Below, piece after piece: positions 6,486-36,180 of a stretch of 40,514 nt of DNA. The stretch is from a virus. How positions within the stretch are numbered: position 1 is the first letter of the stretch; each line of letters starts with the position of its first letter. A program made the position numbers and the translations under genes. The notes beneath the pieces were generated by a model, which was not told where the DNA came from, made no database searches, and saw only the letters and a list, made by a program, of their open reading frames with translations. Location: the IMG/VR virus record IMGVR_UViG_3300033821_000038, positions 1-40,514 of that record; one strand, given 5' to 3'.

Positions 6486-6516
6486 TTTGTATTTATGATT
6501 TTAATGTATATCTTTG
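6486..6516 (+). promoter_or_regulatory. Promoter of tRNA leader 1
   Basis: TTTG at 6486-6489 and TATCTTTG at 6509-6516 are separated by 19 bases, matching the Bacteroidetes housekeeping consensus TTTG/TAnnTTTG. It lies 36 bases before the leader-peptide start. Confidence 0.8.
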
Positions 6517-6551
6517 CAGAGTAAATTTTTTTAATTAATGTTATTTGTTAG

Positions 6552-6626
6552 ATGATGAAAAATTTAGTAAACATAGTACCGCAACCCCAACATCCACAGA
6601 AATTGGAATGGGGAAACTATGCTTAA
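6552..6626 (+). CDS. Leader peptide 1 (Pro/Gln/His-rich) of tRNA attenuator
   Basis: This 24-codon ORF encodes MMKNLVNIVPQPQHPQKLEW plus GNYA. Seven consecutive codons, CCG CAA CCC CAA CAT CCA CAG, specify Pro, Gln and His. These are exactly the identities, by anticodon, of the next tRNA genes: UGG, Pro UGG, His GUG, Gln CUG and Gln UUG. The ORF sits between a Bacteroidetes promoter and a strong terminator. CCCCA (6585-6589, in the control codons) can pair with TGGGG (6609-6613); that same segment can instead pair with the terminator. Ribosome stalling on these codons would free it. The function is inferred from arrangement and pairing. Confidence 0.85.
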   Translation: MMKNLVNIVPQPQHPQKLEWGNYA

Positions 6627-6673
6627 ATTTTTCAAAAGAAAAGGTTTTAGGTTAGACAAAGAAGACCCCATTC
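6606..6673 (+). promoter_or_regulatory. Attenuator 1 antiterminator pairing
   Basis: GAATGGGG at 6606-6613, in the last codons of the leader, is perfectly complementary over 8 bases to CCCCATTC at 6666-6673, which includes most of the 5' arm of the terminator. Formation of this helix excludes the terminator hairpin. The alternative pairing of TGGGG with upstream CCCCA completes the classic three-state attenuator. Confidence 0.8.
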
Positions 6674-6698
6674 ATATCGAGTGGGGTCTTTTATTTTT
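6662..6698 (+). terminator. Attenuator 1 Rho-independent terminator
   Basis: AAGACCCCA (6662-6670) pairs with TGGGGTCTT (6682-6690) in a 9-bp stem followed by a T-rich tail. It lies between the leader ORF and the first tRNA, only 6 bases before the tRNA. Confidence 0.9.
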
Positions 6699-6703: not shown

Positions 6704-6798
6704 TAGGGATTGATCGAGTTGGTTGAAGATGCAAGTCTTGGAAACTTGTGACGGCACAAAGGTAGTGTTGTCCGTGGGTTCGAACCCCACATCCCTAA
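6704..6798 (+). tRNA. Class II tRNA with UGG anticodon (Ser-like body)
   Basis: TAGGGAT pairs with ATCCCTA, and the T arm is GTGGG-TTCGAAC-CCCAC. The variable arm is long (about 25 nt, GACGGCAC/GTGTTGTC stem). The anticodon arm is CAAGT-CTTGGAA-ACTTG, giving UGG (Pro) at 34-36. The body with its GAGTTGGTTGAAG D arm is Ser-like. The leader upstream has Pro but no Ser codons, favouring a Pro-decoding role. Identity is therefore ambiguous. Confidence 0.75.
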
Positions 6799-6902
6799 CA
6801 AATTTAAGTTCTTTGAAATTATTGTTATAGAAATATGTTTTGAAATTGTTTCAAATCAAGTCTTTTTGACATATCTTTGTATTTAAATAAAAAAAGATTA
6901 TT

Positions 6903-7478
6903 ATGAAAGAAATTATTTTGAAATCAAATTCCTTACGTGAAGTATCAATAAAATATTTTGGTTATGTTAATATAATAACATATAGTAAAATTAAGAAATA
7001 TATAAAAGATAATAATATTAATATTTCACATTTTTCTAAAAATCCTGCAAATATTAGACGAATAAAATATCCAAAAATAATTAAAATTTGTCCTATTTGT
7101 GAAAATGAATTTGAAACTAAATCAGGACATCCAAGAGAAAAAACAGTTTGTTCTCATTCCTGCGCTAATACTTATTATCGCACAGGAGTAGAACATCCTA
7201 ATTATAAAGAAGATGTTGATTTAAATGGTGAAGCAAAGCATAGAATAATATGTTTTAGATATCATGAAAAAAAATGTGTTTGTTGTGAAGAAAAAAATAT
7301 TGTGGAAGCACATCATCATGATGGAAATAAAAAAAATAATAAACCAGAAAATTTAGTTCCTTTGTGCCCAACACATCATCGTTATTGGCATAGTAGATTT
7401 AGACATTTAATTGAATTTGTTGTTGATGAATATGTAAAAAAATTTAAAGAAAAATCGAGTAGTAGTTCAGTTGGTTAG
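6903..7478 (+). CDS. HNH homing endonuclease
   Basis: The 191-residue protein has an N-terminal segment (SLREVSIKYFGYVNIITYSKIKKYIKDNNINISHF) also seen in the 11557 protein, then a Cys/His zinc knuckle (CPICENEF..VCSHSC). The C-terminal HNH module has CVCCEEKNIVEAHHHDGN..PENLVPLCPTHHRYWH. It lies between tRNAs of group 1, and its stop codon falls 23 bases inside the following tRNA-Pro gene. TATCTTTG at 6869-6876 is a likely -7 element. It is a free-standing homing endonuclease; its cut site is not visible but is probably a neighbouring tRNA gene. Confidence 0.85.
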   Translation: MKEIILKSNSLREVSIKYFGYVNIITYSKIKKYIKDNNINISHFSKNPANIRRIKYPKIIKICPICENEFETKSGHPREKTVCSHSCANTYYRTGVEHPNYKEDVDLNGEAKHRIICFRYHEKKCVCCEEKNIVEAHHHDGNKKNNKPENLVPLCPTHHRYWHSRFRHLIEFVVDEYVKKFKEKSSSSSVG

Positions 7479-7529
7479 AATGGGTGGTTTGGGACCATCA
7501 GGTCGGGGGTTCGAGTCCCTCTTACTCGA
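7456..7529 (+). tRNA. tRNA-Pro(UGG)
   Basis: CGAGTAG pairs with TTACTCG, and the T arm is GGGGG-TTCGAGT-CCCTC. The anticodon arm is GGTGG-TTTGGGA-CCATC with anticodon UGG. The variable loop is short. The first 23 bases overlap the end of the upstream HNH gene. Confidence 0.92.
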
Positions 7530-7552
7530 CTGATTGTCAAATAATTAACATG

Positions 7553-7628
7553 GTGATTGTAGAGGAATTGGCAGACTCATCTGACTGTGAATCAGAAATC
7601 TTGCGGGTTCGAACCCCGTCTTTCACCC
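7553..7628 (+). tRNA. tRNA-His(GUG)
   Basis: The anticodon arm is TCTGA-CTGTGAA-TCAGA with anticodon GUG. The T arm is GCGGG-TTCGAAC-CCCGT. The acceptor GTGATTG/CTTTCAC contains two T-T oppositions, so it is weaker than usual. Ends are placed from the acceptor stem plus discriminator. Confidence 0.85.
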
Positions 7629-7671
7629 CAAAATACGTGATAATTTGATTTATCATCTTATTACGTGATAT

Positions 7672-7744
7672 TGTCTCGTAGTGTAACTGGCAACATTTTT
7701 GACTCTGAATCAAAAGAGTGCAGGTTCGACCCCTGCCGAGACAG
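7672..7744 (+). tRNA. tRNA-Gln(CUG)
   Basis: TGTCTCG pairs with CGAGACA. The anticodon arm is TTTGA-CTCTGAA-TCAAA with anticodon CUG, and the T arm is GCAGG-TTCGACC-CCTGC. The matching CAG codon is present in leader peptide 1. Confidence 0.93.
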
Positions 7745-7794
7745 CAATAGATTTTATGCAATAAAAGCCGTTTTTCAGCTTTTTGCGCAAAAAT

Positions 7795-7877
7795 TCTCCT
7801 CTGGCAGAATGGTTAATGCATCGCCCTTTGAAGGCGACACTCTAACGGGTTTACAGGTTCGAGTCCTGTGGGGAGAT
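7795..7877 (+). tRNA. tRNA with UUG (Gln) anticodon on a Ser-like class II body
   Basis: TCTCCTC pairs with GGGGAGA, and the T arm is ACAGG-TTCGAGT-CCTGT. The anticodon arm is TCGCC-CTTTGAA-GGCGA, giving UUG. The 15-nt variable region (ACTC/GGGT stem) and TGGCAGAATGGTTAATGC D arm are those of serine tRNAs. CAA codons in leader 1 favour decoding as Gln. Confidence 0.85.
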
Positions 7878-7934
7878 CAAAATAACATGGGTATAAAACG
7901 CCCATGTATTAAAAACGTGGGCAAAAAAATTCCT

Positions 7935-11150: not shown

Positions 11151-11180
11151 TTTGTATTTATGAAAAAATGATTATCTTTG
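11151..11180 (+). promoter_or_regulatory. Promoter of tRNA leader 2
   Basis: TTTG (11151-11154) and TATCTTTG (11173-11180) are separated by 18 bases, matching the Bacteroidetes consensus. The -33 box runs into GTATTTATG. The leader start is 33 bases downstream. Confidence 0.8.
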
Positions 11181-11213: not shown

Positions 11214-11312
11214 ATGAAAAGATTACTCGACATTCTGATGGCAGCCTTGAACTCAGTCCTATTATGGGCAGTGGAAGAGGATGATTATATCTTGTCGGGT
11301 CATGTGAATTAA
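11214..11312 (+). CDS. Leader peptide 2 (Leu/Val/Ala/Glu/Asp/Trp) of tRNA attenuator
   Basis: This 32-codon ORF encodes MKRLLDILMAALNSVLLWAV followed by EEDDYILSGHVN. Leu is encoded by TTA, CTC, CTG, TTG, CTA, TTA and TTG, five different codons. The downstream group carries Leu tRNAs with AAG, UAG, CAG, UAA and CAA anticodons, and also Asp, two Glu (leader GAA and GAG), two Val, Ala and a CCA (Trp) tRNA; all these residues are in the peptide. CTCGAC (11226-11231) can pair with GTCGGG (11294-11299), giving the non-stalled state. Function is inferred. Confidence 0.85.
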   Translation: MKRLLDILMAALNSVLLWAVEEDDYILSGHVN

Positions 11313-11354
11313 CACACAGAAACAACCTCCTTTCTTAAAAAGAAAAGACCCGAC
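11294..11354 (+). promoter_or_regulatory. Attenuator 2 antiterminator pairing
   Basis: GTCGGGTC at 11294-11301 (leader codons near the stop) is perfectly complementary to GACCCGAC at 11347-11354, the 5' arm of the terminator. The two structures are mutually exclusive. Confidence 0.8.
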
Positions 11355-11380
11355 TACCCTAAATTTAGTCGGGTTTTTTT
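11348..11380 (+). terminator. Attenuator 2 Rho-independent terminator
   Basis: ACCCGACT (11348-11355) pairs with AGTCGGGT (11367-11374), followed by a run of T. It sits between leader 2 and the tRNA-Asp gene. Confidence 0.9.
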
Positions 11381-11390
11381 GTGAGGTAAA

Positions 11391-11413
11391 GTTCTTTGAC
11401 ATGTTGGAAATTT
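11391..11413 (+). promoter_or_regulatory. boxA-like element before tRNA-Asp
   Basis: GTTCTTTGACATGTTGG followed by AAATTT lies between terminator 2 and tRNA-Asp. The same 21 bases, beginning TCTTTGACATG, occur at 36030-36050 directly before tRNA-Cys in group 4. GTTCTTTGA resembles the boxA antitermination signals of Bacteroidetes rRNA leaders. Confidence 0.5.
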
Positions 11414-11484
11414 CGAGATCGTAGTGTAATGGTAACATGACTCACTGTCTATGAGTTGTAGGAGTTCGAATCTCACGGTCTCGG
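11414..11484 (+). tRNA. tRNA-Asp(GUC)
   Basis: CGAGATC pairs with GGTCTCG. The anticodon arm is ACTCA-CTGTCTA-TGAGT with anticodon GUC. The T stem has two mismatches at its base. GAC and GAT codons are present in leader 2. Confidence 0.9.
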
Positions 11485-11556
11485 CAATGTTTGGAAATGT
11501 GATAATTATATATTATCTTTGCCGAACACATAAGTATTTATATTTAAAAATTAATT

Positions 11557-12228
11557 ATGAAAACAATTGACGAAAATACATTAAAATTTGCAGTTTTAAA
11601 CGCAAAAAACATTGCACAAGTAATGGCAAATATGAAACATGTAGATTCTTCCAGTGGAAGAAAAACAATAAAAAAATATATTATTATATATAATATAAAT
11701 ACTTCACATTTTGAAACAGTAAAAGAAAGATACGAAAGAGCACCGTATGTAATAAATGCCAAAATACCAAATTCTGATGTTTTTATTGAAAACAACAATC
11801 ATCACTTATCTGGATATAGTTTAAAAAAAAGATTATATGAAGAAGGATTAAAAAAACCAATTTGCGAAAAGTGTGGACAAGATGAAAATTGGCATGGTGA
11901 ACATATTGGTATGATACTTGATCATATTAATGGTATACATAATGACAACAGATTAGAAAATTTAAGAATTCTTTGTCCTAATTGTAATGCAGCATTACCA
12001 ACACATTGTAGAGGTAACATAAAATTAAACAAACAAAAACAAAAAATAGAACACATAAAGAAACGTTATATTAATCTGTCAATATCACAACGTAAAGTAA
12101 AACGCCCCGAATATGAAATATTAAAACAAGAAATAAACGATTTTGGATATACAGGAACAGGTAAAAAATATGGTGTAAGTGATAATGCAATAAGAAAATG
12201 GGTAAAAATTTATGAAAAATATCAATAA
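11557..12228 (+). CDS. HNH homing endonuclease
   Basis: The 223-residue protein has an N-terminal segment ending IKKYIIIYNINTSHF that matches the 6903 protein. A classical HNH module follows: CEKCGQDENWHGEH..LDHINGIHNDNRLENLRILCPNCN. The C-terminal helix-turn-helix-like tail is GKKYGVSDNAIRKWVKIYEKY. A TTTG..TATCTTTG promoter (near 11489-11520) and GTATTTATA (near 11531) precede it. The stop codon lies one base before tRNA-Glu(CUC), again placing an HNH gene directly against a tRNA. Confidence 0.87.
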   Translation: MKTIDENTLKFAVLNAKNIAQVMANMKHVDSSSGRKTIKKYIIIYNINTSHFETVKERYERAPYVINAKIPNSDVFIENNNHHLSGYSLKKRLYEEGLKKPICEKCGQDENWHGEHIGMILDHINGIHNDNRLENLRILCPNCNAALPTHCRGNIKLNKQKQKIEHIKKRYINLSISQRKVKRPEYEILKQEINDFGYTGTGKKYGVSDNAIRKWVKIYEKYQ

Positions 12229-12229
12229 T

Positions 12230-12303
12230 GCTCTCATCGTCTAATTGGTTAGGACATCACTCTCTCAAAGTGGGAATTACGGATTCAAATTCCGTTGGGA
12301 GTA
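12230..12303 (+). tRNA. tRNA-Glu(CUC)
   Basis: GCTCTCA pairs with TGGGAGT (G-T and T-G wobbles). The anticodon arm is TCACT-CTCTCAA-AGTGG with anticodon CUC, and the T arm is ACGGA-TTCAAAT-TCCGT. It decodes GAG, which is present in leader 2. Confidence 0.92.
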
Positions 12304-12307
12304 CAAA

Positions 12308-12370
12308 AAGTCAGATTGATATGAGAGTATTGTCTGGCTATCAGACAGTCAACCTAAATCTTTTTGACTT
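12308..12370 (+). ncRNA. Structured inter-tRNA spacer
   Basis: AAGTCA (12308-12313) pairs with TGACTT (12365-12370), enclosing the perfect hairpin TGTCTG-gctat-CAGACA (12331-12347). It fills the gap between two Glu tRNAs, and may be a processing element or a small RNA. Confidence 0.4.
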
Positions 12371-12373
12371 CAT

Positions 12374-12444
12374 GCTCGGTTCGTATAACGGTAGTACCTA
12401 AGACCTTCAATCTTAGTATGCGGGTCCAACTCCCGTACCGAGTA
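12374..12444 (+). tRNA. tRNA-Glu(UUC) with C33 and C55
   Basis: GCTCGGT pairs with ACCGAGT. The anticodon arm is TAAGA-CCTTCAA-TCTTA: anticodon UUC, but position 33 is C rather than U. The T loop is TCCAACT, with C at position 55. Pairing is otherwise clean. Confidence 0.88.
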
Positions 12445-12481
12445 CAAAAAATAAAAAGTGTTGCATATTATCTCTCAAATG

Positions 12482-12495
12482 ATTATATTTGCGAA
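12482..12495 (+). promoter_or_regulatory. Bacteroidetes-type promoter, -7 region
   Basis: TATATTTG, with a GTTG about 20 bases upstream, lies shortly before the ATG at 12505. It gives the PD-(D/E)XK/HTH gene pair its own transcription inside the tRNA group. Confidence 0.55.
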
Positions 12496-12504
12496 AAATA
12501 TATT

Positions 12505-13005
12505 ATGGGAAACTTAGATATCAACTCAGAAAAAGGACAGATAACAGTTCAACAAGAAACTAAAATGCTTAAGTACATTGAAGAATGCTGGGGAGTAACA
12601 GCAGTCAATACAAAGAAAAAAAGCGATCATGCAGATGCAGCTTGTGATGGTTTTTTAATTAAAGATGGTGAAGTGATTGCACTTTTTGAAAGTAAATGCA
12701 GAAAAATGACTCTTGAACAACTTAAAAATTATGGTACGTGGCTTATCACTTATAATAAAATAAAAAAATGCAAATTATTATCAGAATATCTTCGAGTACC
12801 ATTTGTTGGATTTTTATATTTACTTGATGATGATAAAATAATGCATTGGAATATAACTGATAGTGATGGAAGGTATCTTTTCGAATTCACACATGAAGAA
12901 ACATCAACACGAAGAACAATAAATGATGCTACACCAACAATCAGAGATAATGCATACCTACCAGTTTCTGAAGGTAAAATTGTTGAAAGTAGAAAAATAA
13001 AATAG
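12505..13005 (+). CDS. PD-(D/E)XK nuclease-like protein
   Basis: The 166-residue protein starts at ATG 12505; the frame is open further upstream only because it runs through a tRNA. It contains HADAACDGFLIKDGEVIALFESKCRKMTLEQLKNYGTWLITYNKI. The D..(x)..E-S-K spacing fits the PD-(D/E)XK nuclease core, followed by VPFVGFLYLLDDDKI. It is followed 3 bases later by an HTH gene. Such a pair could be a phage-encoded defence or exclusion nuclease with a regulator, but activity is only inferred from the motif. Confidence 0.6.
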   Translation: MGNLDINSEKGQITVQQETKMLKYIEECWGVTAVNTKKKSDHADAACDGFLIKDGEVIALFESKCRKMTLEQLKNYGTWLITYNKIKKCKLLSEYLRVPFVGFLYLLDDDKIMHWNITDSDGRYLFEFTHEETSTRRTINDATPTIRDNAYLPVSEGKIVESRKIK

Positions 13006-13008
13006 AAA

Positions 13009-13305
13009 ATGAAACAACTAATATTATTGCCTAAAATGCAACGCCAATTAGATACTGTTGGAGAAAACATTAAACTGGCAAGATTGCGTAGAAAATTTTC
13101 TATAGAACAAGTCATGGAAAGAGCAGATATATCATTGGATGATTTAAATGAAATCGAAAAAGGGTCACCAAATATCAATATTGGCAAATATCTTTTAGTT
13201 CTTAGGGTATTGAATTTAGAAAAAGATATTTATAAGATAGCCGAAAACGATATCTTAGGCAGAAAACTTCAAGATATCGAATTATTAAATAAAGAAAAAA
13301 AATAA
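13009..13305 (+). CDS. XRE/HipB-like helix-turn-helix regulator
   Basis: The 98-residue protein contains VGENIKLARLRRKFSIEQVMERADISLDDLNEIEKGSPNINIGKYLLVLRVLNLEKDI..ILGRKLQD. This is the Bacteroidetes HipB-type XRE domain, usually the DNA-binding antitoxin paired with HipA. No hipA is adjacent; the neighbour is the nuclease-like gene. It may regulate that gene or act as an orphan antitoxin against a host toxin. Its stop lies just before a tRNA-Val gene. Confidence 0.8.
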   Translation: MKQLILLPKMQRQLDTVGENIKLARLRRKFSIEQVMERADISLDDLNEIEKGSPNINIGKYLLVLRVLNLEKDIYKIAENDILGRKLQDIELLNKEKK

Positions 13306-13306
13306 C

Positions 13307-13380
13307 GCATCTTTAACTCAGGGGTTCAGAGTTCCTGCCTTACAAGCAGGGTGTCGGTGGTTCGAATCCATCAAGATGCA
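13307..13380 (+). tRNA. tRNA-Val(UAC), first copy
   Basis: GCATCTT pairs with AAGATGC. The anticodon arm is CCTGC-CTTACAA-GCAGG with anticodon UAC, and the T arm is GGTGG-TTCGAAT-CCATC. CCA is encoded (13381-13383). Confidence 0.94.
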
Positions 13381-13384
13381 CCAT

Positions 13385-13458
13385 GCTCCTTTAACTCAGT
13401 CCGGGAGAGTGTCTGTCTTACATACAGAAAGTCGGGGGTTCAAACCCCTCAAGGAGTA
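13385..13458 (+). tRNA. tRNA-Val(UAC), second copy
   Basis: GCTCCTT pairs with AAGGAGT. The anticodon arm is TCTGT-CTTACAT-ACAGA with anticodon UAC, and CCA is encoded (13459-13461). It has the same anticodon as the tRNA immediately upstream but a clearly different sequence, so it is not a recent duplicate. Confidence 0.93.
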
Positions 13459-13464
13459 CCAAAT

Positions 13465-13517
13465 ATCGGGTTGACAACCGATAAGTAATCTCAATCGGGA
13501 TATATCCCGATAATCAA
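13465..13517 (+). ncRNA. Paired hairpins between tRNA-Val and tRNA-Leu
   Basis: ATCGG-gttgacaa-CCGAT is followed by the perfect palindromic hairpin ATCGGGATA-TATCCCGAT. No T-run follows, so these are more likely RNA processing or spacer structures than terminators. Confidence 0.35.
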
Positions 13518-13518
13518 T

Positions 13519-13600
13519 CCGATTGTGGTGGAACTGGTAGACACGTGCGTTTAAGAGGCGCATGCCGAAAGGTTTGTGGGTTCGACTCCCACCAATCGGA
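13519..13600 (+). tRNA. tRNA-Leu(AAG)
   Basis: CCGATTG pairs with CAATCGG. The long variable arm is TGCCGAAAGGTTT. The anticodon arm TGCGT-TTAAGAG-GCGCA gives AAG when aligned with the next Leu tRNA. A reading of UAA would need a G-G mismatch. Confidence 0.8.
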
Positions 13601-13608
13601 CAAAATAT

Positions 13609-13691
13609 GGGGATGTGATGAAATTGGTAGTACATGCGAGTTTTAGAAGCTCGTGCCTATGGGCGTGAGGGTTCGAGTCCCTTCATCCCTA
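13609..13691 (+). tRNA. tRNA-Leu(UAG)
   Basis: GGGGATG pairs with CATCCCT. The long variable arm has a CCTATGGG hairpin. The anticodon arm is CGAGT-TTTAGAA-GCTCG with anticodon UAG, and CCA is encoded (13692-13694). It decodes CTA, present in leader 2. Confidence 0.9.
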
Positions 13692-13697
13692 CCAATT

Positions 13698-13772
13698 GTG
13701 GACGTGCTGGAATTGGTATACGGGTTGGCTTCAGACACCAATATTTTGAGGGTTCGAGTCCCTTCGTCCGCA
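13698..13772 (+). tRNA. tRNA-Leu(CAG), short variable loop
   Basis: GTGGACG pairs with CGTCCGC, and the T arm is GAGGG-TTCGAGT-CCCTT. The anticodon arm is TTGGC-TTCAGAC-ACCAA with a C-A mismatch at the loop, giving CAG. The variable region is only about 6 nt, unusual for a Leu tRNA, so the anticodon is somewhat uncertain. Confidence 0.7.
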
Positions 13773-13775
13773 CGA

Positions 13776-13843
13776 CCTTATTCTGGATAACGAAGCAAAT
13801 AGTTCCAGACACTTAGGCACGAAGTCATGGTTCGTGAATAAGG
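13776..13843 (+). ncRNA. tRNA-like folded spacer RNA
   Basis: CCTTATTC (13776-13783) pairs with GAATAAGG (13836-13843). Directly 5' of the closing strand is CACGAA-gtcatgg-TTCGTG, a stem with a 7-nt loop. An acceptor-like helix stacked on a T-arm-like hairpin recalls a tRNA half, but the loop lacks TTCRA and no anticodon arm is evident. Confidence 0.4.
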
Positions 13844-13849
13844 ACAACT

Positions 13850-13923
13850 GCCCCGTTGATGTAACTGGTAACCATACCTGTCTTAAAAGCAGTTTTCTCT
13901 CAGTCCGAATCTGAGACGGGGTA
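13850..13923 (+). tRNA. tRNA with UAA (Leu) anticodon, C55
   Basis: GCCCCGT pairs with ACGGGGT. The T arm is CTCAG-TCCGAAT-CTGAG, with C at position 55. The anticodon arm is CTGT-CTTAAAA-GCAG, giving UAA. The variable loop is short, unlike a normal Leu tRNA. TTA codons occur in leader 2. Confidence 0.75.
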
Positions 13924-13926
13924 CAA

Positions 13927-14058
13927 AGGTGAATGTGTTTGCTGTTTGCAGTAGCAAATGCCACCTGTGCCGAATGATTTGTAGAGAAGAAAGTAGTACT
14001 TTCCAATACATCATGTATCTGCAACATCTGATGATGGTTGAATCATTAAAAAGGCACA
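13927..14058 (+). ncRNA. Multi-stem structured RNA between tRNAs
   Basis: The first hairpin is AGGTG (13927-13931) with CACCT (13962-13966) enclosing TTTGCT/AGCAAA. The second domain is closed by TGTGCC (13966-13971) with GGCACA (14053-14058) and AATGATT (13973-13979) with AATCATT (14041-14047). It encloses GAAAGTagtACTTTC and ATACATcATGTAT. No ORF or T-loop is present. It recalls the stable RNAs of unknown role in the T4 tRNA cluster. Confidence 0.5.
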
Positions 14059-14061
14059 CAC

Positions 14062-14137
14062 GGGGCATTAGTTTAGTTGGCTAAAACATCTGCTTTGCAC
14101 GCAGAAGATTCCGGGGGTTCGACTCCCCCATGCTCCA
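14062..14137 (+). tRNA. tRNA-Ala(UGC)
   Basis: GGGGCAT pairs with ATGCTCC. The anticodon arm is TCTGC-TTTGCAC-GCAGA with anticodon UGC, and the T arm is GGGGG-TTCGACT-CCCCC. Confidence 0.95.
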
Positions 14138-14189
14138 CTAAACAATAGGATTCGATAGCAAACTTCTCCACTTTTCAGATTTTTCATAG

Positions 14190-14211: not shown

Positions 14212-15183
14212 ATGAAAAATTGGAAAATGGGAAGAAAATTAATTGATGTGGTTTGTGCAAATTGCCAAAACATATTTAAAAAAACCGAATCTGAATTTAA
14301 TCGAAGTGAAAAAAACAATAAAAAACATTTTTGTTCAATTAAATGTAATAAAGATTATCGAAAAAAAAATAGTTTTAATCTTACTAAAAAATGTAAGTTT
14401 TGTGGTTCTGAATTTATTGGAGATAATATAAAAACTGCTTTTTGTTCACATAAATGTTCAGCATCATATAATAATAGAATGAGAACATGTAAAGAAAGAG
14501 TATATACTGAACAAGGAATGAAAAATATTCTTAATGCTAATAATAAAAGATATAACACACAAGAATATTATATTAATCCTAATTATTGCATTGAATGTAA
14601 TAAAATTCTTTCATTTGGCAAAAGAAATTGGAAATTTTGTTCGATTGAATGTAAAAAAATATATGATAGAAAGAATCTAACTGAATATCAAAAATATTAT
14701 AAAGAATGTCAATTTAAATTTAATCTATCGGATTATCCCAATGAATTTAATTTTAATTTAATTAAAGAATATGGTTGGTATCAAGCAAAAAATCATGGCA
14801 ATAATTTAAATGGTGTTAGTAGAGACCATATGATTTCTGTAAAATATGGATATGAAAATAATATAAGTCCTGAAATAATTAAACATCCTGCTAATTGTCA
14901 ATTAATGATACATAATGAAAATTCGAGTAAATGGAAAGCATGCTCAATTACTTCAGAAGAATTAAATAGTAGAATTATTGAATGGGATAATAAATACGGC
15001 TGCATCCATTGGCGAGGTAAGCAATCTCCAAAATTGTGCCGAAAGGTGTGCTTGTTCGATTCGAGCCAGCCGTGCAATGAAGCAATAGTAAAAATCGCAG
15101 GTGTGTACTGCAATCATCGTCCCTTCCAAAAGAACACCGATACCACTGAGGGCAGAAATGTACCCAAGAGCAATATCAGTTAG
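14212..15183 (+). CDS. HNH homing endonuclease with zinc knuckles
   Basis: The 323-residue protein has three Cys2-Cys2-type knuckles (VCANCQNIF..FCSIKCNKDY; CKFCGSEF..FCSHKC; CIECNK..FCSIECKKIY) and an HNH-like C-terminus: YGWYQAKNHGNNLNGVSRDHMISVKYGYENNISPEIIKHPANCQLMIHNENSSKWK. This C-terminal module is shared with the 36181 protein (NNLNGVSKDHIYSVYDGF..LKHPANCKLVQHIDNNKKK). After about residue 262 the frame runs through a tRNA gene (14996-15074) and beyond, so the last 60 residues are probably read-through rather than selected protein. Confidence 0.82.
   Translation: MKNWKMGRKLIDVVCANCQNIFKKTESEFNRSEKNNKKHFCSIKCNKDYRKKNSFNLTKKCKFCGSEFIGDNIKTAFCSHKCSASYNNRMRTCKERVYTEQGMKNILNANNKRYNTQEYYINPNYCIECNKILSFGKRNWKFCSIECKKIYDRKNLTEYQKYYKECQFKFNLSDYPNEFNFNLIKEYGWYQAKNHGNNLNGVSRDHMISVKYGYENNISPEIIKHPANCQLMIHNENSSKWKACSITSEELNSRIIEWDNKYGCIHWRGKQSPKLCRKVCLFDSSQPCNEAIVKIAGVYCNHRPFQKNTDTTEGRNVPKSNIS
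14996..15074 (+). tRNA. tRNA with CCA (Trp) anticodon on Leu-like body, inside HNH frame
   Basis: ACGGCTG pairs with CAGCCGT, and the T arm is GCTTG-TTCGATT-CGAGC. The anticodon arm GCAAT-CTCCAAA-ATTGT gives CCA. The 12-nt variable region (GCC-gaaa-GGT) is class-II-like, and the D stem is weak. A TGG codon in leader 2 supports a Trp role. It overlaps the HNH reading frame. Confidence 0.75.
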
Positions 15184-17509: not shown

Positions 17510-17547
17510 ATGTTCTTTAAAAATAACGGGGGTGACTTGGCTTTGAC
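17499..17547 (+). repeat. Right copy of tmRNA promoter plus 5' end (functional)
   Basis: It is identical to the left copy for 28 bases and then leads into the full tmRNA. It contains the GTATTTATA motif and a TGTTCTTTAAAAATA boxA-like stretch, and is the likely promoter and leader of the tmRNA. Confidence 0.85.
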
Positions 17548-17880
17548 TGAATGTCAGACTGGTAATATAAGCAAGTAGTAGTTGAATCGGACTACTTTAA
17601 AAAGGTTCAAAAAATAAATGAAGACATTATGTCTATCTTAACTTCTTTAACAAGAGGTGGCGTATTTGCAGAGAGTGCTGAACTCGCAATGGCAGCTTAA
17701 GAGAGCGAAAAACACAGCAAAAAACTCCTAACTTGAAGGGAAGTAAAATAAATTCAAGACAGTTTTATAGTTGTTCTGGAATAATACAATTAATATTTTG
17801 TTGATTAAGAAAAATCAAATAAACTTGTAGAAATTTTATTATTCGCATTCAACACACGGGTTCGACTCCCGTCACCTCCA
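17528..17880 (+). ncRNA. ssrA: tmRNA (transfer-messenger RNA) with long tag
   Basis: GGGGGTGA pairs with TCACCTCC and the discriminator is A. The T arm is ACGGG-TTCGACT-CCCGT. GAATG near 17550 can pair with CATTC near 17845 (helix 2), and AAGTAGT/ACTACTT forms a pseudoknot-1 stem. AAAAAATAAAT before GAA resembles AAAAAATAGTC before the E. coli resume codon. Reading from GAA gives a 26-residue tag that begins EDIMSILTSLTRGG and ends VFAESAELAMAA before TAA. tmRNA rescues stalled ribosomes and tags the nascent protein for proteolysis. Host tags are usually about 10 residues, so this one is long. Confidence 0.92.
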
Positions 17881-17904
17881 CAATTTATTGAAAATCAATT
17901 GGTT

Positions 17905-18213
17905 ATGACAACATATAACAAATTAGTAAGGGACAAAATCTTGAAAATAATTAAAAAATCTGGTTCAGGTTATAAATATCATATTGCTAAAGATGATGCC
18001 GAATATCTTGTCAAACTTTACGAAAAACTCGATGAAGAAATTGGAGAATTTAAAGAAAAGCCAAGTGTAGATGAATTTGCAGATATACTGGAAGTAATAG
18101 AAAGCATTGGTAAATTTTACGGATTTCATTTAGATAAAGTTAAAGAAGCAAAACAAACAAAAAAATTTAATCGTGGCAGTTTTGACAACAGAATAATACT
18201 TGAAGAATCATAA
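17905..18213 (+). CDS. MazG-like / phosphoribosyl-ATP pyrophosphohydrolase-like protein
   Basis: The 102-residue protein starts at ATG 17905. YNKLVRDKILKIIKKSGSGYKYHIAKDDAEYLVKLYEKLDEEIGEFKEKPSVDEFADILEVIESIGKFYG carries the EExxE...D(x)xxD helix pattern of the all-alpha NTP pyrophosphohydrolase superfamily and the YNKLVRDKI opening of its phage and bacterial small members. These proteins clean aberrant nucleotides or lower (p)ppGpp. It lies 25 bases after the tmRNA and one base before a tRNA-Leu. Confidence 0.82.
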   Translation: MTTYNKLVRDKILKIIKKSGSGYKYHIAKDDAEYLVKLYEKLDEEIGEFKEKPSVDEFADILEVIESIGKFYGFHLDKVKEAKQTKKFNRGSFDNRIILEES

Positions 18214-18214
18214 T

Positions 18215-18299
18215 GGCGTAGTGGTGGAATTGGTAGACACGCAGGACTTAAAATCCTGTGCTCCCAAAGGGCGTGTGGGTTCGACTCCCATCTTCGCTA
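18215..18299 (+). tRNA. tRNA-Leu(UAA)
   Basis: GGCGTAG pairs with CTTCGCT (one T-T). The anticodon arm is CAGGA-CTTAAAA-TCCTG with anticodon UAA. The long variable arm is TGCTCCCAAAGGGCGT, and the T arm is GTGGG-TTCGACT-CCCAT. It starts one base after the preceding stop codon. Confidence 0.92.
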
Positions 18300-18314
18300 C
18301 TAATAAAAAATAAA

Positions 18315-18590
18315 ATGAAAATACCTATTGACATATTATTTGAAAATTGCAAGAAAGCAGTTAGAAAAGAAATTCGAAAAGATTGCTGGAAAGAAGCGTA
18401 TGTAATTCTTGAGCTTTGTGATGAAAAAGATCGTCAGGAGTTTTTAAAATACAGTAAGAAACTGGATAGAGGCAATCTTTGCTGTCTTGTATTAGATTAT
18501 GCTAAGAAAAAATTAGTTGCTGAAGGTAAAATGGAACAGAAAGAATCTGATTGTTTTCATGACCCAGCAGACTTATTTAAAATGAATTGA
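18315..18590 (+). CDS. Small unknown protein
   Basis: The 91-residue protein starts at ATG 18315; the frame extends upstream only through the tRNA-Leu gene. It is helical and charged (DILFENCKKAVRKEIRKDCWKEAYVILELCDEKDRQEFLKYSKKLDRGNLCCLVLDYAKKK) with several Cys residues. No family is recognised. The next small gene starts 2 bases after its stop. Confidence 0.65.
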   Translation: MKIPIDILFENCKKAVRKEIRKDCWKEAYVILELCDEKDRQEFLKYSKKLDRGNLCCLVLDYAKKKLVAEGKMEQKESDCFHDPADLFKMN

Positions 18591-18592
18591 TT

Positions 18593-18706
18593 ATGACCAA
18601 AATAATTAAAGGCAAATCAAAAGAAGATGATTGTCATTGTGGCAAACCTCTCAGGATTAATGACCCAAGAAAAAAAAGAATTATCAGAGTTATAAAGAAA
18701 AAATAA
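18593..18706 (+). CDS. Very small basic protein with CHCGKP motif
   Basis: This 37-residue ORF encodes MTKIIKGKSKEDDCHCGKPL and then RINDPRKKRIIRVIKKK. It starts 2 bases after the previous stop and ends one base before tRNA-Leu(CAA). The CxC motif and basic tail suggest a nucleic-acid or metal-binding peptide. Its position in a tight series supports translation. Confidence 0.55.
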   Translation: MTKIIKGKSKEDDCHCGKPLRINDPRKKRIIRVIKKK

Positions 18707-18707
18707 A

Positions 18708-18788
18708 CCTCAAGTGATGGAATGGTAGACTTGCTGGTTTCAAAAACCAGTGTCGAAAGGCGTGCGGGTTCAAGTCCCGCCTTGAGGA
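18708..18788 (+). tRNA. tRNA-Leu(CAA)
   Basis: CCTCAAG pairs with CTTGAGG. The anticodon arm is CTGGT-TTCAAAA-ACCAG with anticodon CAA. The long variable arm is TGTCGAAAGGCGT, and the T arm is GCGGG-TTCAAGT-CCCGC. It decodes TTG, used twice in leader 2. Confidence 0.93.
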
Positions 18789-18827
18789 CAAATAACAATG
18801 GATGTCGAGACTAAGCCAACTGGCAGG

Positions 18828-18890
18828 AATCTAATGCTAATGACCCGAAAAAGGTGCAATGATGGGCGACACGACATTAGATTTTTTATT
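18828..18890 (+). terminator. Long-loop hairpin terminator after tRNA-Leu
   Basis: AATCTAATG (18828-18836) pairs perfectly with CATTAGATT (18875-18883), followed by a T-run. The 38-base loop contains further complementary bits, so this could equally be a structured spacer RNA ending in a terminator. Confidence 0.55.
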
Positions 18891-18966
18891 AGTATTTATT
18901 TAAAAAGTAATTTATGAAAAAATTAACCTTAGATTTCTTGTAACGCACTAAAGCGTATACAAGATT

Positions 18967-19257
18967 ATGGGAAATAAAAAAATCGTAGAAACAACTACTA
19001 ATCGTGGTGAATTCAATCGTGCTTATAAACAGCACCTTGAAAAAAGTGGAAAAATTCACTGTTCACGTTGTCCTTATCATCGTCATGAAAATGATGGTAG
19101 GAAATTTTATGGTGGTAATAAAAAACGTATCAGATATCCTAACTGGAAACTGGTATCAAAAAATCCACAACAATGGATGGAAAAATCAGTAACCTTAGTT
19201 GAAAAAACTTATGGTTATGGTAGATGGGAAAGAAATTATACTTTAATTAAATTTTAG
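18967..19257 (+). CDS. Small Cys/His protein
   Basis: The 96-residue basic protein has CSRCPYHRHEN, a possible zinc site, then RIRYPNWKLVSKNPQQWMEKSVTLVEKTYGYGRWERN. A GTATTTATT motif lies near 18891, and a 9-codon ORF (MKKLTLDFL) lies between it and this gene. The PNWKL..KNPQQWM pattern is seen in other phage and Bacteroidetes small proteins of unknown role. Confidence 0.65.
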   Translation: MGNKKIVETTTNRGEFNRAYKQHLEKSGKIHCSRCPYHRHENDGRKFYGGNKKRIRYPNWKLVSKNPQQWMEKSVTLVEKTYGYGRWERNYTLIKF

Positions 19258-19268
19258 AAGTGTGGCAC

Positions 19269-19341
19269 ACCGCTATCTGTCCAACGGATAAGACGGCTCT
19301 TTCATAAGGAGTAGATATTAGTTCGATTCTAATTAGCGGTA
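19269..19341 (+). tRNA. tRNA-Met(CAU)
   Basis: ACCGCTA pairs with TAGCGGT, and the T arm is ATTAG-TTCGATT-CTAAT. The anticodon arm GCTCT-TTCATAA-GGAGT gives CAU. Elongator Met is the simplest reading; an Ile tRNA with lysidine-modified CAU cannot be excluded. Confidence 0.85.
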
Positions 19342-19345
19342 CAAA

Positions 19346-21169: not shown

Positions 21170-22191
21170 AAGAAAAAGAAGAAATACATATAAATGAAAA
21201 TTATTGGAGAAACATGACACCAGTAGAATTGGAGAATTTTGCTAAAATAATTTTTATACATTATAGAGAAACTGGTTTCCCGTATTACCCAACAGATGAT
21301 CTGACCAGACAAAAAGATTTTAAGACATTAATGAAATATAACTTTAAGTCATTATTTGCTGGCAATATGATAATGCAATCAATGCATGGTCTTGGACTTG
21401 CATGGTCTTATTTTCCACATTCTTTTAATGTCAGATCAAATGATAAAATGACACCATACGAAGCGTTTATGAATGATGATATCTTCATGAAAGTTATAAG
21501 AAAAAGATTAGAGATGGGCACGTACATATCAGATTCTGGCATAAGAAAAATGCTAAAGATATTTACTGGTGTACAAGGAGTTTCAAACTTCAGACCAACT
21601 GCTGCAGCATGTATATATAATAGATTTGCAAAAGGTGGAACAGTTTGGGATATGTCTGGTGGCTGGGGTGGAAGATTGCTTGGTGCACTCGCTGGTGGAG
21701 TTGGTGCTTACATTGCTACTGAACCAAGCAAATTAACTTGTGATGGATTATATGATCTTGCTAAAGATTTTGGTGGTAAAACAGAGTGTGTAATATTTGA
21801 ACAAGGTAGTGAAGATTTCACACCAGAAAAAGGAGTACTGGATTTGTGTTTTACTTCACCACCATATTTTGATCTTGAAAAATACGCTGACGAACCTTCA
21901 CAAAGTTATATCAAATTTAATACGAAGGAAACATGGATTGAAGGATTTTTAAGACCAACATTTAAAAATTGTCACCACGGATTAAAAGTTGGTGGATACA
22001 TGTTGATCAATATTGCAGATGTTAAAGGCAAATATAATATTAATTTGGAACAAGAAACTATAAATACTGCAATGGATGTAGGATTTTTATTGGTAGATGA
22101 ATACCAGCTTGCACTTTCAAACATAAATTTACGAAAGAAAGGCATGAAGTTTAAGTACGAACCTATTTATGTATTTAAGAAATGGAAATAA
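21166..22191 (+). CDS. DNA methyltransferase (N4/N6 amino type)
   Basis: The 341-residue protein contains VWDMSGGWGGRLLGALAGGVGAYIATEPS (SAM-binding motif I) and DLCFTSPPYFDLEKYADEPSQS (catalytic S/D-PP-Y motif). GLKVGGYMLINIADVK follows. TSPPY is typical of exocyclic amino-group DNA methylases. A role in protecting phage DNA is plausible. It overlaps the upstream methyltransferase-like gene by 4 bases and the downstream RNA ligase by 10. Confidence 0.85.
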   Translation: MKEKEEIHINENYWRNMTPVELENFAKIIFIHYRETGFPYYPTDDLTRQKDFKTLMKYNFKSLFAGNMIMQSMHGLGLAWSYFPHSFNVRSNDKMTPYEAFMNDDIFMKVIRKRLEMGTYISDSGIRKMLKIFTGVQGVSNFRPTAAACIYNRFAKGGTVWDMSGGWGGRLLGALAGGVGAYIATEPSKLTCDGLYDLAKDFGGKTECVIFEQGSEDFTPEKGVLDLCFTSPPYFDLEKYADEPSQSYIKFNTKETWIEGFLRPTFKNCHHGLKVGGYMLINIADVKGKYNINLEQETINTAMDVGFLLVDEYQLALSNINLRKKGMKFKYEPIYVFKKWK

Positions 22192-23267
22192 AAGTATTAA
22201 AAAAGGTTGACTGGAAAATATTACATGAATATTCAGACAATAGCCTTATAATCGCAAATAAACATCCAGATTATGATATCTGGATACTTAACTATTCCCC
22301 AAAAGTTCAATCAAAAAAATTCTGGGACGAATATACTTTGTCTTCACGTGGGTTAATTATTGATATTGATGGTAATATTTTGGCACGTCCATTTCAGAAA
22401 TTTAAAAACTTAGAAGAATACGACCCTTCAGAGATTGACATGACTCAGGATTACGATGTTTTTGAAAAAATGGATGGTTCATTAATCATTGCATTTTATT
22501 ATGAACCACGCATGAAATGGATAATTGCATCAAGAGGGTCATTTATATCTGAACAGGCATTAGAAGCACAAAAAATGCTTATTGATTTTAGTTGTTTAGA
22601 TAAAGCATATACTTATTTGTTTGAAATAATTTATCCAGAAAACCGTATTGTTGTTGATTATGGCAATAGAAGAGAACTTATATTGCTTACTAAAATCGAA
22701 ACGAAAACAGGTATTGAAACATATTATGACGATTTACTTGCAAAATATTCAAAATATTTCACCGTAGTAAAAAAATATAAAATAAAAAACATTAACAATT
22801 TGAACGAGTTGAAAGAACTTGAAGAAAATAACAAAGAAGGATTTGTGGTAAGATTTTTCAATGGTTTCAGAGTTAAAGTGAAATTTAGTGAATACGTCAG
22901 ACTACATGGTATATTAACAAACGTTTCTAACTTAACTGTTTGGGAACATTTGATGAACAACTATAATTTTGATGCATTGTATGACAGAGTTCCAGATGAA
23001 TTTTATGACTGGTTAAAAAGAACAATAAACTCATTACAGTCAGAATATAATGAAATCGAAAGACAAGCATTAAAAGAATTCACAAGAATTTATCATGTAA
23101 ATGAGATCAGTAATCGTAAGGATTTTGCAATGGAAGCAATAAAGACAGAATACCAGTCAATATTATTCAGAATGTATGATAAAAGATCATACGATGAAAT
23201 TATATGGAAAATAATACGACCTGTGTATAGCAAGCCATTTAAAGATGGTTTTGAGTATAGTATATAA
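22182..23267 (+). CDS. T4 Rnl1-type RNA ligase
   Basis: The 361-residue protein carries the nucleotidyltransferase motifs of Rnl1: DVFEKMDGSLIIAFYY with nucleophile K96, SSRGLIID upstream, ASRGSF, YLFEIIYPENRIVVDYG (motif IIIa), EGFVVRFFNGFRVKVKFSEYV (motifs IV and V). T4 Rnl1 is 374 residues with the same order. It seals tRNAs cut by host anticodon nucleases, and in this tRNA-rich phage the same role is likely, perhaps with the receiver-domain protein at 8193. It overlaps the methyltransferase and ends before a terminator. No polynucleotide kinase is seen in the window. Confidence 0.88.
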   Translation: MEIKVLKKVDWKILHEYSDNSLIIANKHPDYDIWILNYSPKVQSKKFWDEYTLSSRGLIIDIDGNILARPFQKFKNLEEYDPSEIDMTQDYDVFEKMDGSLIIAFYYEPRMKWIIASRGSFISEQALEAQKMLIDFSCLDKAYTYLFEIIYPENRIVVDYGNRRELILLTKIETKTGIETYYDDLLAKYSKYFTVVKKYKIKNINNLNELKELEENNKEGFVVRFFNGFRVKVKFSEYVRLHGILTNVSNLTVWEHLMNNYNFDALYDRVPDEFYDWLKRTINSLQSEYNEIERQALKEFTRIYHVNEISNRKDFAMEAIKTEYQSILFRMYDKRSYDEIIWKIIRPVYSKPFKDGFEYSI

Positions 23268-25110: not shown

Positions 25111-25142
25111 TTTGCATATGTCGTATTTATACAATACATTTG
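25111..25142 (+). promoter_or_regulatory. Promoter of tRNA leader 3
   Basis: TTTG (25111-25114) and TACATTTG (25135-25142) are 20 bases apart, and the leader start is 38 bases further on. GTATTTATA also lies in the spacer. Confidence 0.7.
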
Positions 25143-25180
25143 TCACCTGAAATATTAACAAACAATTAAAGAATAAAGAA

Positions 25181-25273
25181 ATGATTACAATTGGTACATA
25201 TTATTACGGTAAAAAATCTTATAAGAAACAGCTTATAGGAATCGGGAATAGTATGTCCAAAAACAAAAAATAA
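25181..25273 (+). CDS. Leader peptide 3 (Tyr/Lys-rich) of tRNA attenuator
   Basis: This 30-codon ORF encodes MITIGTYYYGKKSYKKQLIG plus IGNSMSKNKK, with Tyr codons TAT TAT TAC and TAT, and Lys codons AAA and AAG. The three tRNAs that follow are Lys(UUU), Tyr(GUA) and Lys(CUU). TCTTATAAG (25217-25225, the Ser-Tyr-Lys codons) can pair with CTTATAGGA (25232-25240). The latter overlaps the antiterminator strand, so a ribosome stalled on the Tyr/Lys codons would free it. It is the clearest match of peptide to tRNA cargo among the four leaders. Confidence 0.85.
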   Translation: MITIGTYYYGKKSYKKQLIGIGNSMSKNKK

Positions 25274-25318
25274 ATCAATTTTCCTTTTTTTGCAAATTAG
25301 ACATGGGAAACCCGATTC
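25239..25318 (+). promoter_or_regulatory. Attenuator 3 antiterminator pairing
   Basis: GAATCGGG (25239-25246, within the leader) is perfectly complementary to CCCGATTC (25311-25318), the 5' arm of the terminator. Confidence 0.8.
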
Positions 25319-25336
25319 ACGAGAGTCGGGTTTTTT
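25309..25336 (+). terminator. Attenuator 3 Rho-independent terminator
   Basis: AACCCGATTC (25309-25318) pairs with GAGTCGGGTT (25323-25332) in a 10-bp stem with one G-T pair, followed by a T-run. Confidence 0.9.
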
Positions 25337-25488: not shown

Positions 25489-25562
25489 GACCTCTTAGCT
25501 CCAATTGGTAGAGCAACTGACCTTTAATCAGTGGGTTGCGAGTCCGAATCTCGCAGGGGTCA
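25489..25562 (+). tRNA. tRNA-Lys(UUU) with C33 and C55
   Basis: GACCTCT pairs with AGGGGTC. The anticodon arm is ACTGA-CCTTTAA-TCAGT: anticodon UUU with C at 33. The T arm is GCGAG-TCCGAAT-CTCGC, with C at 55. It is otherwise a canonical Lys tRNA. Confidence 0.9.
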
Positions 25563-25568
25563 CAAAAT

Positions 25569-25647
25569 GGAAATGTTGGGTGCTGGAATACCCAAGAGTC
25601 CGTAAAACTCCCGCTTCGGCATGTTGGTTCGAGTCCAACCATTTCCA
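25569..25647 (+). tRNA. tRNA-Tyr(GUA) with C33
   Basis: GGAAATG pairs with CATTTCC. The anticodon arm is GAGT-CCGTAAA-ACTC: anticodon GUA with C at 33. The class II variable arm is CCGCTTCGGCAT, and the T arm is GTTGG-TTCGAGT-CCAAC. Confidence 0.9.
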
Positions 25648-25653
25648 CAACAA

Positions 25654-25725
25654 GCATCTGTAACAAAGTGGTTATGTTCCCGCCTCTTAAGCGGACTTAC
25701 GCAGGTTCGAATCCTGTCGGATGCA
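25654..25725 (+). tRNA. tRNA-Lys(CUU)
   Basis: GCATCTG pairs with CGGATGC. The anticodon arm is CCGC-CTCTTAA-GCGG with anticodon CUU and a normal U33. The T arm is GCAGG-TTCGAAT-CCTGT. Confidence 0.93.
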
Positions 25726-25763
25726 CAAATATTTTATATAACACCTGACTATTAGTCATATCA

Positions 25764-35683: not shown

Positions 35684-35714
35684 TTTGCAAATACCAGAAC
35701 TTTATTTACCTTTG
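35684..35714 (+). promoter_or_regulatory. Promoter of tRNA leader 4
   Basis: TTTG (35684-35687) and TACCTTTG (35707-35714) are 19 bases apart, matching the Bacteroidetes consensus and the other three leader promoters. Confidence 0.8.
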
Positions 35715-35767
35715 CGGAGTATTTAATTGAAAACGAACATAACAATAAAGATTTATAATAAATAAAA

Positions 35768-35896
35768 ATGAAAACGTACAGGAACATATCAACTATCATT
35801 ACATCGACCTCAAGTCGCAACGGGATTGTCATATTCTGTTCAGACTTTACAGGCAGAAATAATGGAATTGATACGGGTTCTGGTTTTATTGAGTAA
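35768..35896 (+). CDS. Leader peptide 4 (Ile/Ser/Thr/Asn/Gly/Phe/Cys) of tRNA attenuator
   Basis: This 42-codon ORF encodes MKTYRNISTIITSTSSRNGI, then VIFCSDFTGRNNGIDTGSGF and IE. Ile is specified by ATA, ATC and ATT, Ser by TCA, TCG, TCT and AGT, with Asn, Gly, Phe and Cys codons also present. Downstream are Cys, Asn, Ile(GAU), Ser(UGA), Ser(GCU), Met, Phe, Gly, Ile(UAU) and Asn tRNAs. Six Thr codons fit the Thr tRNAs at 39651 and 39734. Three Arg codons have no tRNA-Arg that I can find. A weak CAGAA/TTCTG pairing is the only candidate for the non-stalled structure. Confidence 0.82.
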   Translation: MKTYRNISTIITSTSSRNGIVIFCSDFTGRNNGIDTGSGFIE

Positions 35897-35930
35897 TTAT
35901 AAAACTCAAAAAAGATTTAACAAGAACCCG
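35874..35930 (+). promoter_or_regulatory. Attenuator 4 antiterminator pairing
   Basis: CGGGTTCT (35874-35881, leader codons) is perfectly complementary to AGAACCCG (35923-35930), which contains most of the terminator's 5' arm. Confidence 0.78.
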
Positions 35931-35954
35931 ATTCGCAAGATTCGGGTTTTTTTG
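35925..35954 (+). terminator. Attenuator 4 Rho-independent terminator
   Basis: AACCCGATTC pairs with GATTCGGGTT (10 positions, one T-T mismatch) around a GCAA loop, followed by a T-run. It lies about 100 bases before tRNA-Cys. Confidence 0.9.
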
Positions 35955-36025: not shown

Positions 36026-36027
36026 AA

Positions 36028-36122: not shown

Positions 36123-36152
36123 CGAAGGTTCAAGTCCTATTTTTTACTCGTT

Positions 36153-36164: not shown

Positions 36165-36180
36165 ATATAAAAATAAAAAA

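Follow-up and report, generated by a model that had tools for sequence, protein, structure and literature searches.

We propose that the tRNA operons of a huge phage of apparent Bacteroidota are controlled by multiplexed, ribosome-mediated transcription attenuation: shortage of any tRNA decoded in a short leader peptide would switch on the operon behind it. We consider this reading very likely (probability about 0.9), with the reservation that there are no expression or ribosome-profiling data. The window, that is, the whole stretch of a virus record that was analysed, is 40,514 bases long and has 32 tRNA genes and one tmRNA, every one on the + strand. It also encodes ribonucleotide reductase (RNR) and an RNA ligase, and by the RNR its nearest sequenced relatives are huge phages.

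In the proposed scheme, RNA polymerase would begin at a Bacteroidota-type promoter and a ribosome would translate the leader. When the encoded aminoacyl-tRNAs are all plentiful, the ribosome would reach the stop codon and its footprint would lie over an antiterminator at the 3′ end of the leader. The terminator would then fold and the tRNA operon would stay silent. When the decoding tRNA is scarce at any control codon, the stalled ribosome would leave the antiterminator free to bind the 5′ arm of the terminator, and polymerase would continue past a boxA-like element and transcribe the tRNA genes. Each operon would provide the tRNAs whose shortage its leader senses, making a multiplexed feedback loop. 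Stalling, the direction of control, derepression by scarce charged tRNA and a role in replacing host tRNAs lost in infection are inferred from sequence alone.

Anatomy of leader 2 and the other proposed attenuators of the window

The anatomy is shown by sequence analysis; all features given here are on the + strand. Leader 2 is an ORF of 32 codons (11214-11312) that reads MKRLLDILMAALNSVLLWAVEEDDYILSGHVN before its stop and is rich in Leu, Asp, Glu, Val, Ala, Trp and Met. The operon 2 promoter (11151-11180), called with the generally known Bacteroidota consensus, has TTTG at -33 (11151) and TATCTTTG at -7 (11173-11180). A possible protector, segment 1 (11225-11232), has its partner at 11293-11300, and the competitor CTCGAC (11226-11231) pairs with GTCGGG, giving 8 pairs counting G-U (-10.7). 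The antiterminator, segment 2, is GTCGGGTC (11294-11301) and forms a perfect 8-bp helix with GACCCGAC (11347-11354; -16.8 kcal/mol). The intrinsic terminator, segments 3:4 with a T-run, spans 11345-11380 (hairpin 11345-11377, -15.6). By geometry, stalling at the codons of 11226-11282, the sensing window, would free the antiterminator. The first-pass annotation had claimed both the 8-base perfect antiterminator and its CTCGAC/GTCGGG competitor. Both pairings are present in leader 2, the second as a possible protector only: this pairing (1:2) is absent from some homologues, e.g., that of G003.

Downstream, a boxA-like element, TTCTTTGACATGTTGG (11392-11407), resembles Bacteroidota rRNA spacers and precedes tRNA-Asp at 11414. 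The operon (11414-14138) encodes Asp, Glu, Glu, Val, Val, Leu (AAG, UAG, CAG, UAA) and Ala tRNAs with interspersed ORFs, and a distal part (17528-19342) has the tmRNA, tRNA-Leu(UAA), tRNA-Leu(CAA) and tRNA-Met. As ORFs interrupt the operon, co-transcription of the distal tRNAs is an assumption. The annotation had listed downstream Leu tRNAs with anticodons AAG, UAG, CAG, UAA and CAA; all are present, the last in the distal part. It had also matched the GAA/GAG, GAC/GAT, GTC/GTG, GCA/GCC and TGG codons of the leader to downstream tRNAs. This held for Glu, Asp, Val and Ala and only partly for Trp. Neither ARAGORN nor Rfam calls a tRNA-Trp in the window; the sequence at 14997-15074 is probably a divergent tRNA-Trp(CCA), since it aligns to the tRNA-Trp(CCA) of relatives and has a CCA anticodon.

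All four tRNA operons of the window share this layout. Attenuator 1 (6509-6692) has a -7 box at 6509, a leader ORF with Pro, Gln and His codons (6552-6626), an antiterminator (6605-6614) and a terminator (6660-6692); its leader, MMKNLVNIVPQPQHPQKLEWGNYA, precedes Pro, Pro, His, Gln and Gln tRNAs (6704-7878). For attenuator 3 (25135-25335) the corresponding elements are at 25135, 25181-25273 (Tyr and Lys codons), 25238-25247 and about 25307-25335, and the leader, MITIGTYYYGKKSYKKQLIGIGNSMSKNKK, precedes Lys, Tyr and Lys tRNAs (25489-25726). Attenuator 4 (35707-35951) has its -7 box at 35707, its leader ORF at 35768-35896 (Ser, Thr, Ile, Asn, Cys, Phe, Gly and also Arg codons), its antiterminator at 35873-35882 and its terminator at 35922-35951. 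This leader, MKTYRNISTIITSTSSRNGIVIFCSDFTGRNNGIDTGSGFIE, stands before Cys, Asn, Ile, Ser, Ser, Phe, Gly, Ile, Asn, Thr and Thr tRNAs (36052-39821). The dN/dS values of leaders 1-4 are 0.26, 0.39 (14 homologues for leader 2), 0.75 and 0.67, indicating purifying selection on the peptides.

Some further features of the region may be recorded here. Leader 4 (35768-35896) has Arg codons and the window is without an Arg tRNA; Arg tRNAs are predicted just past its end, because operon 4 of relatives continues from the Thr tRNAs into Arg tRNAs. In relatives such as G001, G003, G008 and W04, a lone tRNA with a CUA anticodon (Pyl according to ARAGORN), possibly an amber suppressor, recurs downstream of operon 4. 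ORFs that by sequence appearance alone resemble HNH homing endonucleases lie between tRNAs and split operons (6903-7478, 11557-12228, 14212-15183 and 36181-36975). The tmRNA (17528-17881) has an unusually long predicted tag, EDIMSILTSLTRGGVFAESAELAMAA, and in W02 it is a tmRNA that comes first behind a leader and terminator. The RNA ligase (22182-23267) belongs to PHROG 562, RNA ligase and tail fiber attachment catalyst, and would suit repair of cleaved tRNAs. After tRNA-Ser(GCU), 37453-37800 contains degenerate tRNA-like sequences that ARAGORN does not call, possibly decayed or odd tRNAs.

The promoters of the window are of the Bacteroidota type (TTTG, then TAnnTTTG); a generic sigma-70 scan, the wrong promoter type, gave no excess. 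A near-identical 25-bp stretch with the boxA-like TTCTTTGACATGTTGG lies before the first tRNA of two operons (11389-11413 and 36026-36050). A 20-mer from before the first tRNA, GTTCTTTGACATGTTGGAAA, was found in 14 genome contigs, mostly Bacteroidota. Six contigs were examined; in the four where rRNA genes were found, the 20-mer comes after the spacer tRNAs and ahead of 23S rRNA, the position of the spacer boxA. Such a location is compatible with a Bacteroidota host and with antitermination of the rRNA type for a long untranslated transcript. Five phages of >634 kb have been predicted to infect Bacteroidetes (PMC7162821), and the sizes of LR745206.1, LR756501.1 and LR756502.1 lead us to infer that these are among them.

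Leader codons and pairing arms across huge phages

Relatives were sampled first around the RNR gene, in contigs of IMG/VR and in three phage records of GenBank, and then in regions adjoining those that had tRNAs. A script that ignored composition and judged leader ORFs by their promoter, their length and how far they lay from the terminator gave 77 clean leader sites. Four hits without a plausible leader (G006 at 9994, G017 at 19191, G020 at 9345 and 10504) were left out, and the results are unchanged when they are put back. Leader-2 homologues in G003 and G021 were missed by the script and spotted by eye. In all, about 88 operons have the attenuator design. They come from more than 20 huge phages, both related and distant, one of which is the largest described (735 kb).

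The distant phages divide their tRNAs among operons in quite another way, and their leaders change accordingly. LR745206.1 (634 kb) has MTTTQQIQQQQINQTD before three tRNA-Gln and MKTINNTSKSSSRSSSMSEIRLYS before tRNA-Arg and tRNA-Ser. IMGVR_UViG_3300014208_000024 has a leader beginning MKTLSLCLCLLLSNCSQ before Leu and Cys tRNAs and MKNKVENMNWSSRRRSSSRFTCSWPHII before Ser, Arg and Trp tRNAs. The tRNAs behind MKAISVHIIHIWEHLLEEVNINIM in LR756500.1 are those for His, Glu, Val, Trp and Leu. LR756501.1 (735 kb) has MNNILHINLLNSLCLLGIKLIG before five tRNA-Leu, and a leader beginning MLQTSKHSKHFSSSSKWFTTFG before Trp, His, His, Phe, Lys, Ser and Lys tRNAs. Near tRNAs, 32 of 40 terminators have a promoter and short ORF upstream, against 3 of 101 terminators elsewhere. 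The design is not universal: the tRNA clusters of T4 and T5, taken as controls, have no terminator before the tRNAs, no leader was detected in the control Lak-A1, and some tRNA clusters, such as the Cys cluster of G018, are without a detectable leader.

The match between leader codons and operon is far beyond chance. When leaders were shuffled among operons inside each genome, the true pairing came first in all 23 genomes (for example, 1 of 5040 in LR745206.1, 1 of 120 in G023 and 1 of 24 in the window), and none of 50000 overall permutations reached the observed score. In a validation set unused in building the method, the true pairing ranked 1 of 24 in the 735-kb LR756501.1 and 1 of 5040 in LR756502.1 (642 kb). 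The latter is organised like LR745206.1, so those two are not mutually independent. The match is specific to the reading frame: 84 of 88 leaders exceed z = 1.64 in the ORF frame, and 1 and 0 do so in the other two. It is also specific to position, given the assumption that the leading edge of the ribosome lies 13 nt past the first base of the A-site codon. Within the sensing window the fraction of codons cognate to the operon is 0.70, against 0.28 expected from composition, whereas it is at background at codons 2-4 (0.21 vs. 0.23) and 0.32 vs. 0.23 over or after the antiterminator. As read from sequence alone, the leaders track amino acids very strongly.

The complementarity of leader and terminator arm is likewise far beyond chance. 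In 63 of the 77 leaders the 3′ part pairs with the 5′ arm of the terminator better than in 95% of dinucleotide shuffles; in the remaining 14 a significant antiterminator is missing. The validation set has one at p ≤ 0.05 in 9 of 11. Exchange of arms among operons of one genome abolishes the pairing, none of 20000 permutations being as good. The arms covary, as in G023 (terminator ACGGGAGCAGTT with leader AAATTGCTCCCA) and LR745206.1 (ACCCTCAG with CTGAGGGT). The first-pass claim of attenuation by a tRNA-matched leader is thus strongly supported by the permutations, frame specificity, the position of matched codons, antiterminator covariation and the unseen validation set.

A ribosome at the stop codon would be well placed to mask the antiterminator in window leaders 1, 2 and 4. 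In leaders of the leader-3 type about 23 nt separate the end of the antiterminator from the stop codon, which puts the antiterminator just outside the footprint, and full masking is not expected. In folds of leader 2, the antiterminator forms if polymerase has only reached the terminator loop and a ribosome stands no further along than the Leu-Leu-Trp codons. Once the full terminator is present, the hairpin is favoured at equilibrium in most leaders even with a stalled ribosome, and hence the choice must be kinetic, made during transcription. Equilibrium folding with the full terminator was for this reason dropped as a test of switching, and complementarity, swaps and geometry were used instead. 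A drop over the control codons is seen in only some equilibrium folds (window leader 3, G012 leader 4, W02 at 54134 and G021 leader 1).

Possible isoacceptor sensing and rival explanations

The Leu codons of leader 2 are, in order, TTA CTC CTG TTG CTA TTA TTG, so that five of the six kinds occur in seven codons, as first annotated. By itself, this diversity proves nothing (p 0.10). The first pass had reasoned that homologues with a single Leu codon, or with none, would refute its idea, and had raised the persistence of all five kinds as a check. No refuting case was found: of the 15 leader-2 homologues in genomes with Leu tRNAs (14 from the dN/dS alignment set plus that of G007), all keep at least two kinds. 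TTA, TTG, CTC and CTA are kept and CTG mostly is not: the alignment columns TTA, CTC, TTG, CTA and TTA recur, and CTG is limited to the window and one relative. Taken with the conservation and enrichment figures below, this shows that the spread of Leu codons has been selected, but "five codons for five tRNAs" holds for the window and not for the family.

A stronger claim, that of the first pass, is that each synonymous codon reports one anticodon, so that single isoacceptors are sensed. Such sensing would add to attenuation by tRNA shortage rather than replace it, and the evidence for and against it is finely balanced. In its favour, 83 of 126 codons in a non-redundant set are readable by the operon's own anticodons, where phage codon use predicts 69.8 +/- 5.1 (p 0.0075). 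Leu codon identity between phages is 0.61 in leader 2 and 0.38 in RNR (p 0.003), with CTC (17% vs. 5%) and CTA (22% vs. 9%) enriched in the leader-2 homologues and CTT avoided (0 vs. 22%). In W01 the operon with tRNA-Arg(ACG) has CGC/CGA in its leader, and that with Arg(UCU, CCU) has AGA, each suiting its own anticodons. Against it are the restriction of CTG, the non-significance of the five Leu codons in the window, the absence of an isoacceptor preference among Ser codons, and a codon spread that is raised for unmatched residues also (310 vs. 286). The first-pass proposal of isoacceptor sensing is partly supported: the signal is real but modest.

Other explanations would replace the tRNA-specific reading. 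It remains possible, though less likely, that the same attenuator senses amino-acid starvation of the host or a general translational slow-down, as a timing or stress switch, and not the shortage of particular tRNAs. Stalling reports charged tRNA, which starvation also lowers; classical attenuators work in this way (PMC1183508), and two of the phages have aminoacyl-tRNA synthetase genes under the same control. However, extra tRNA is no cure for a shortage of amino acids, the leaders list the tRNAs of their own operon and not residues that are generally scarce, and a global sensor of slow-down needs no codons split by operon. That the leader ORF encodes a small phage protein with a function of its own, next to an ordinary terminator, the codon match being coincidental, can be nearly dismissed. 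The dN/dS below 1 in all families (0.26-0.75) speaks for it, yet the peptides are wholly different between lineages while tracking tRNA content. Moreover, matching drops at the antiterminator, where base pairing with the terminator explains the C-terminal residues, and the permutation, validation, positional and reading-frame results contradict a coincidence. Direct binding of uncharged tRNA by the 5′ RNA, as in a T-box, with the ORF incidental, would likewise control tRNA-related genes through a terminator. It is scarcely tenable, as there is no T-box match in the window, nor over leader 2 at a relaxed threshold, and the signal is specific to the reading frame.

Known systems and synthetase genes

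Ribosome-mediated attenuation is a known class of mechanism. Within the open-access literature searched, and with no expression evidence, what appears new is that tRNA genes are the target, that phages carry the device and that the loop is closed and multiplexed. The phage leaders resemble the attenuators of amino-acid operons (trp, his, leu, thr, ilvGMEDA) in having a leader peptide with regulatory codons, a competing antiterminator and an intrinsic terminator, a design described for trp and his (PMC1183508). The ilvGMEDA and thr attenuators already mix codons of several amino acids. The phage leaders differ in controlling tRNA operons rather than biosynthesis and in covering up to eight or so amino acids each, and the product of the operon is the sensed decoder itself. 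The Rfam Trp, His, Leu and Thr leader families give no match over leader 2 even at E 5. T-box riboswitches also regulate tRNA-charging genes by antitermination, but translation plays no part in them: the RNA base-pairs directly with the uncharged tRNA that it senses. The leader-peptide systems named in a 2010 survey of attenuators (PMC2965389) are all from Proteobacteria, Actinobacteria and Firmicutes. The open-access literature searched, a scope that excludes subscription literature, yielded no description of leader peptides attenuating tRNA operons, or of such attenuation in phages; the recent phage-tRNA papers PMC10264068 and PMC13015707 are silent on it.

The purpose of phage tRNAs has been argued over for decades. 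Phage tRNAs can replace host tRNAs lost to tRNA-cleaving defence nucleases (PMC10264068, PMC11555353). The tRNAs considered here would similarly compensate for lost host tRNAs; regulated expression is not mentioned in PMC10264068. The leaders record in the phage sequence which tRNAs are watched and imply expression on demand, by which "codon supplement" and "replacement of destroyed host tRNAs" become directly testable. A bolder reading, which may as readily prove wrong as right, is that tRNA operons and some synthetase operons of huge phages gauge, through ribosome stalling, their own tRNAs down to isoacceptors and refill only those that run out, e.g., after cuts by a defence nuclease. If so, phage tRNAs would be an on-demand repair supply and not a constant supplement to codon usage. 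The main reading would widen leader-peptide attenuation to cover tRNA genes, phages and multiplexed sensing, and it yields a simple rule for annotating huge-phage tRNA operons; the leaders could act as ready-made biosensors of tRNA charging.

The scan covered LR745206.1 in full, most of LR756501.1 and, in LR756502.1, the tRNA regions. Apart from those before tRNAs, the attenuator-like sites that have a significant antiterminator lie upstream of aminoacyl-tRNA synthetase genes. Synthetase operons are known to be attenuated in this manner: the pheST leader pheM is one example, and the his leader of hisS in Firmicutes is another (PMC2965389). There, as before the phage Val, Leu, Asn and His synthetase-like genes, the leader codons match the synthetase; the phage devices differ in being phage-encoded and in belonging to a set that also covers tRNA operons.

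The 634-kb phage has the device upstream of its Val-, Leu-, Asn- and His-tRNA synthetase genes, with leaders MKTINLNNLVVVNVSV (5 Val codons), MINNNVNILLLPLT (4 Leu codons), MTINNRNRLTDII (3 Asn codons) and MRALHTYKITIDLG (1 His codon), respectively. The LR756502.1 counterpart of the histidine leader is MKTLHTYKNVIDWM, and the aspartate synthetase leader of that phage, MIVIYGLTASQISDR, has a single Asp codon. The synthetase sites with codon-matched leader-peptide attenuators are L146:9831-11096, L204:14381-15709 (- strand), L145:15522-16697, L152:10425-11057 and L187:8364-9638. The Gln operon runs on into a glutamine-tRNA ligase gene. In the His/Phe/Lys operon of LR756502.1 no tRNA-Trp was found; its leader keeps a Trp codon and a TrpRS-like gene is present. 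The enzymes for asparagine, aspartate and glutamine score above the NCBIfam cut-offs, and those for valine, leucine, histidine and tryptophan are shorter relatives that fall under them. The Leu and Val synthetases are unusually short, about 420-440 aa.
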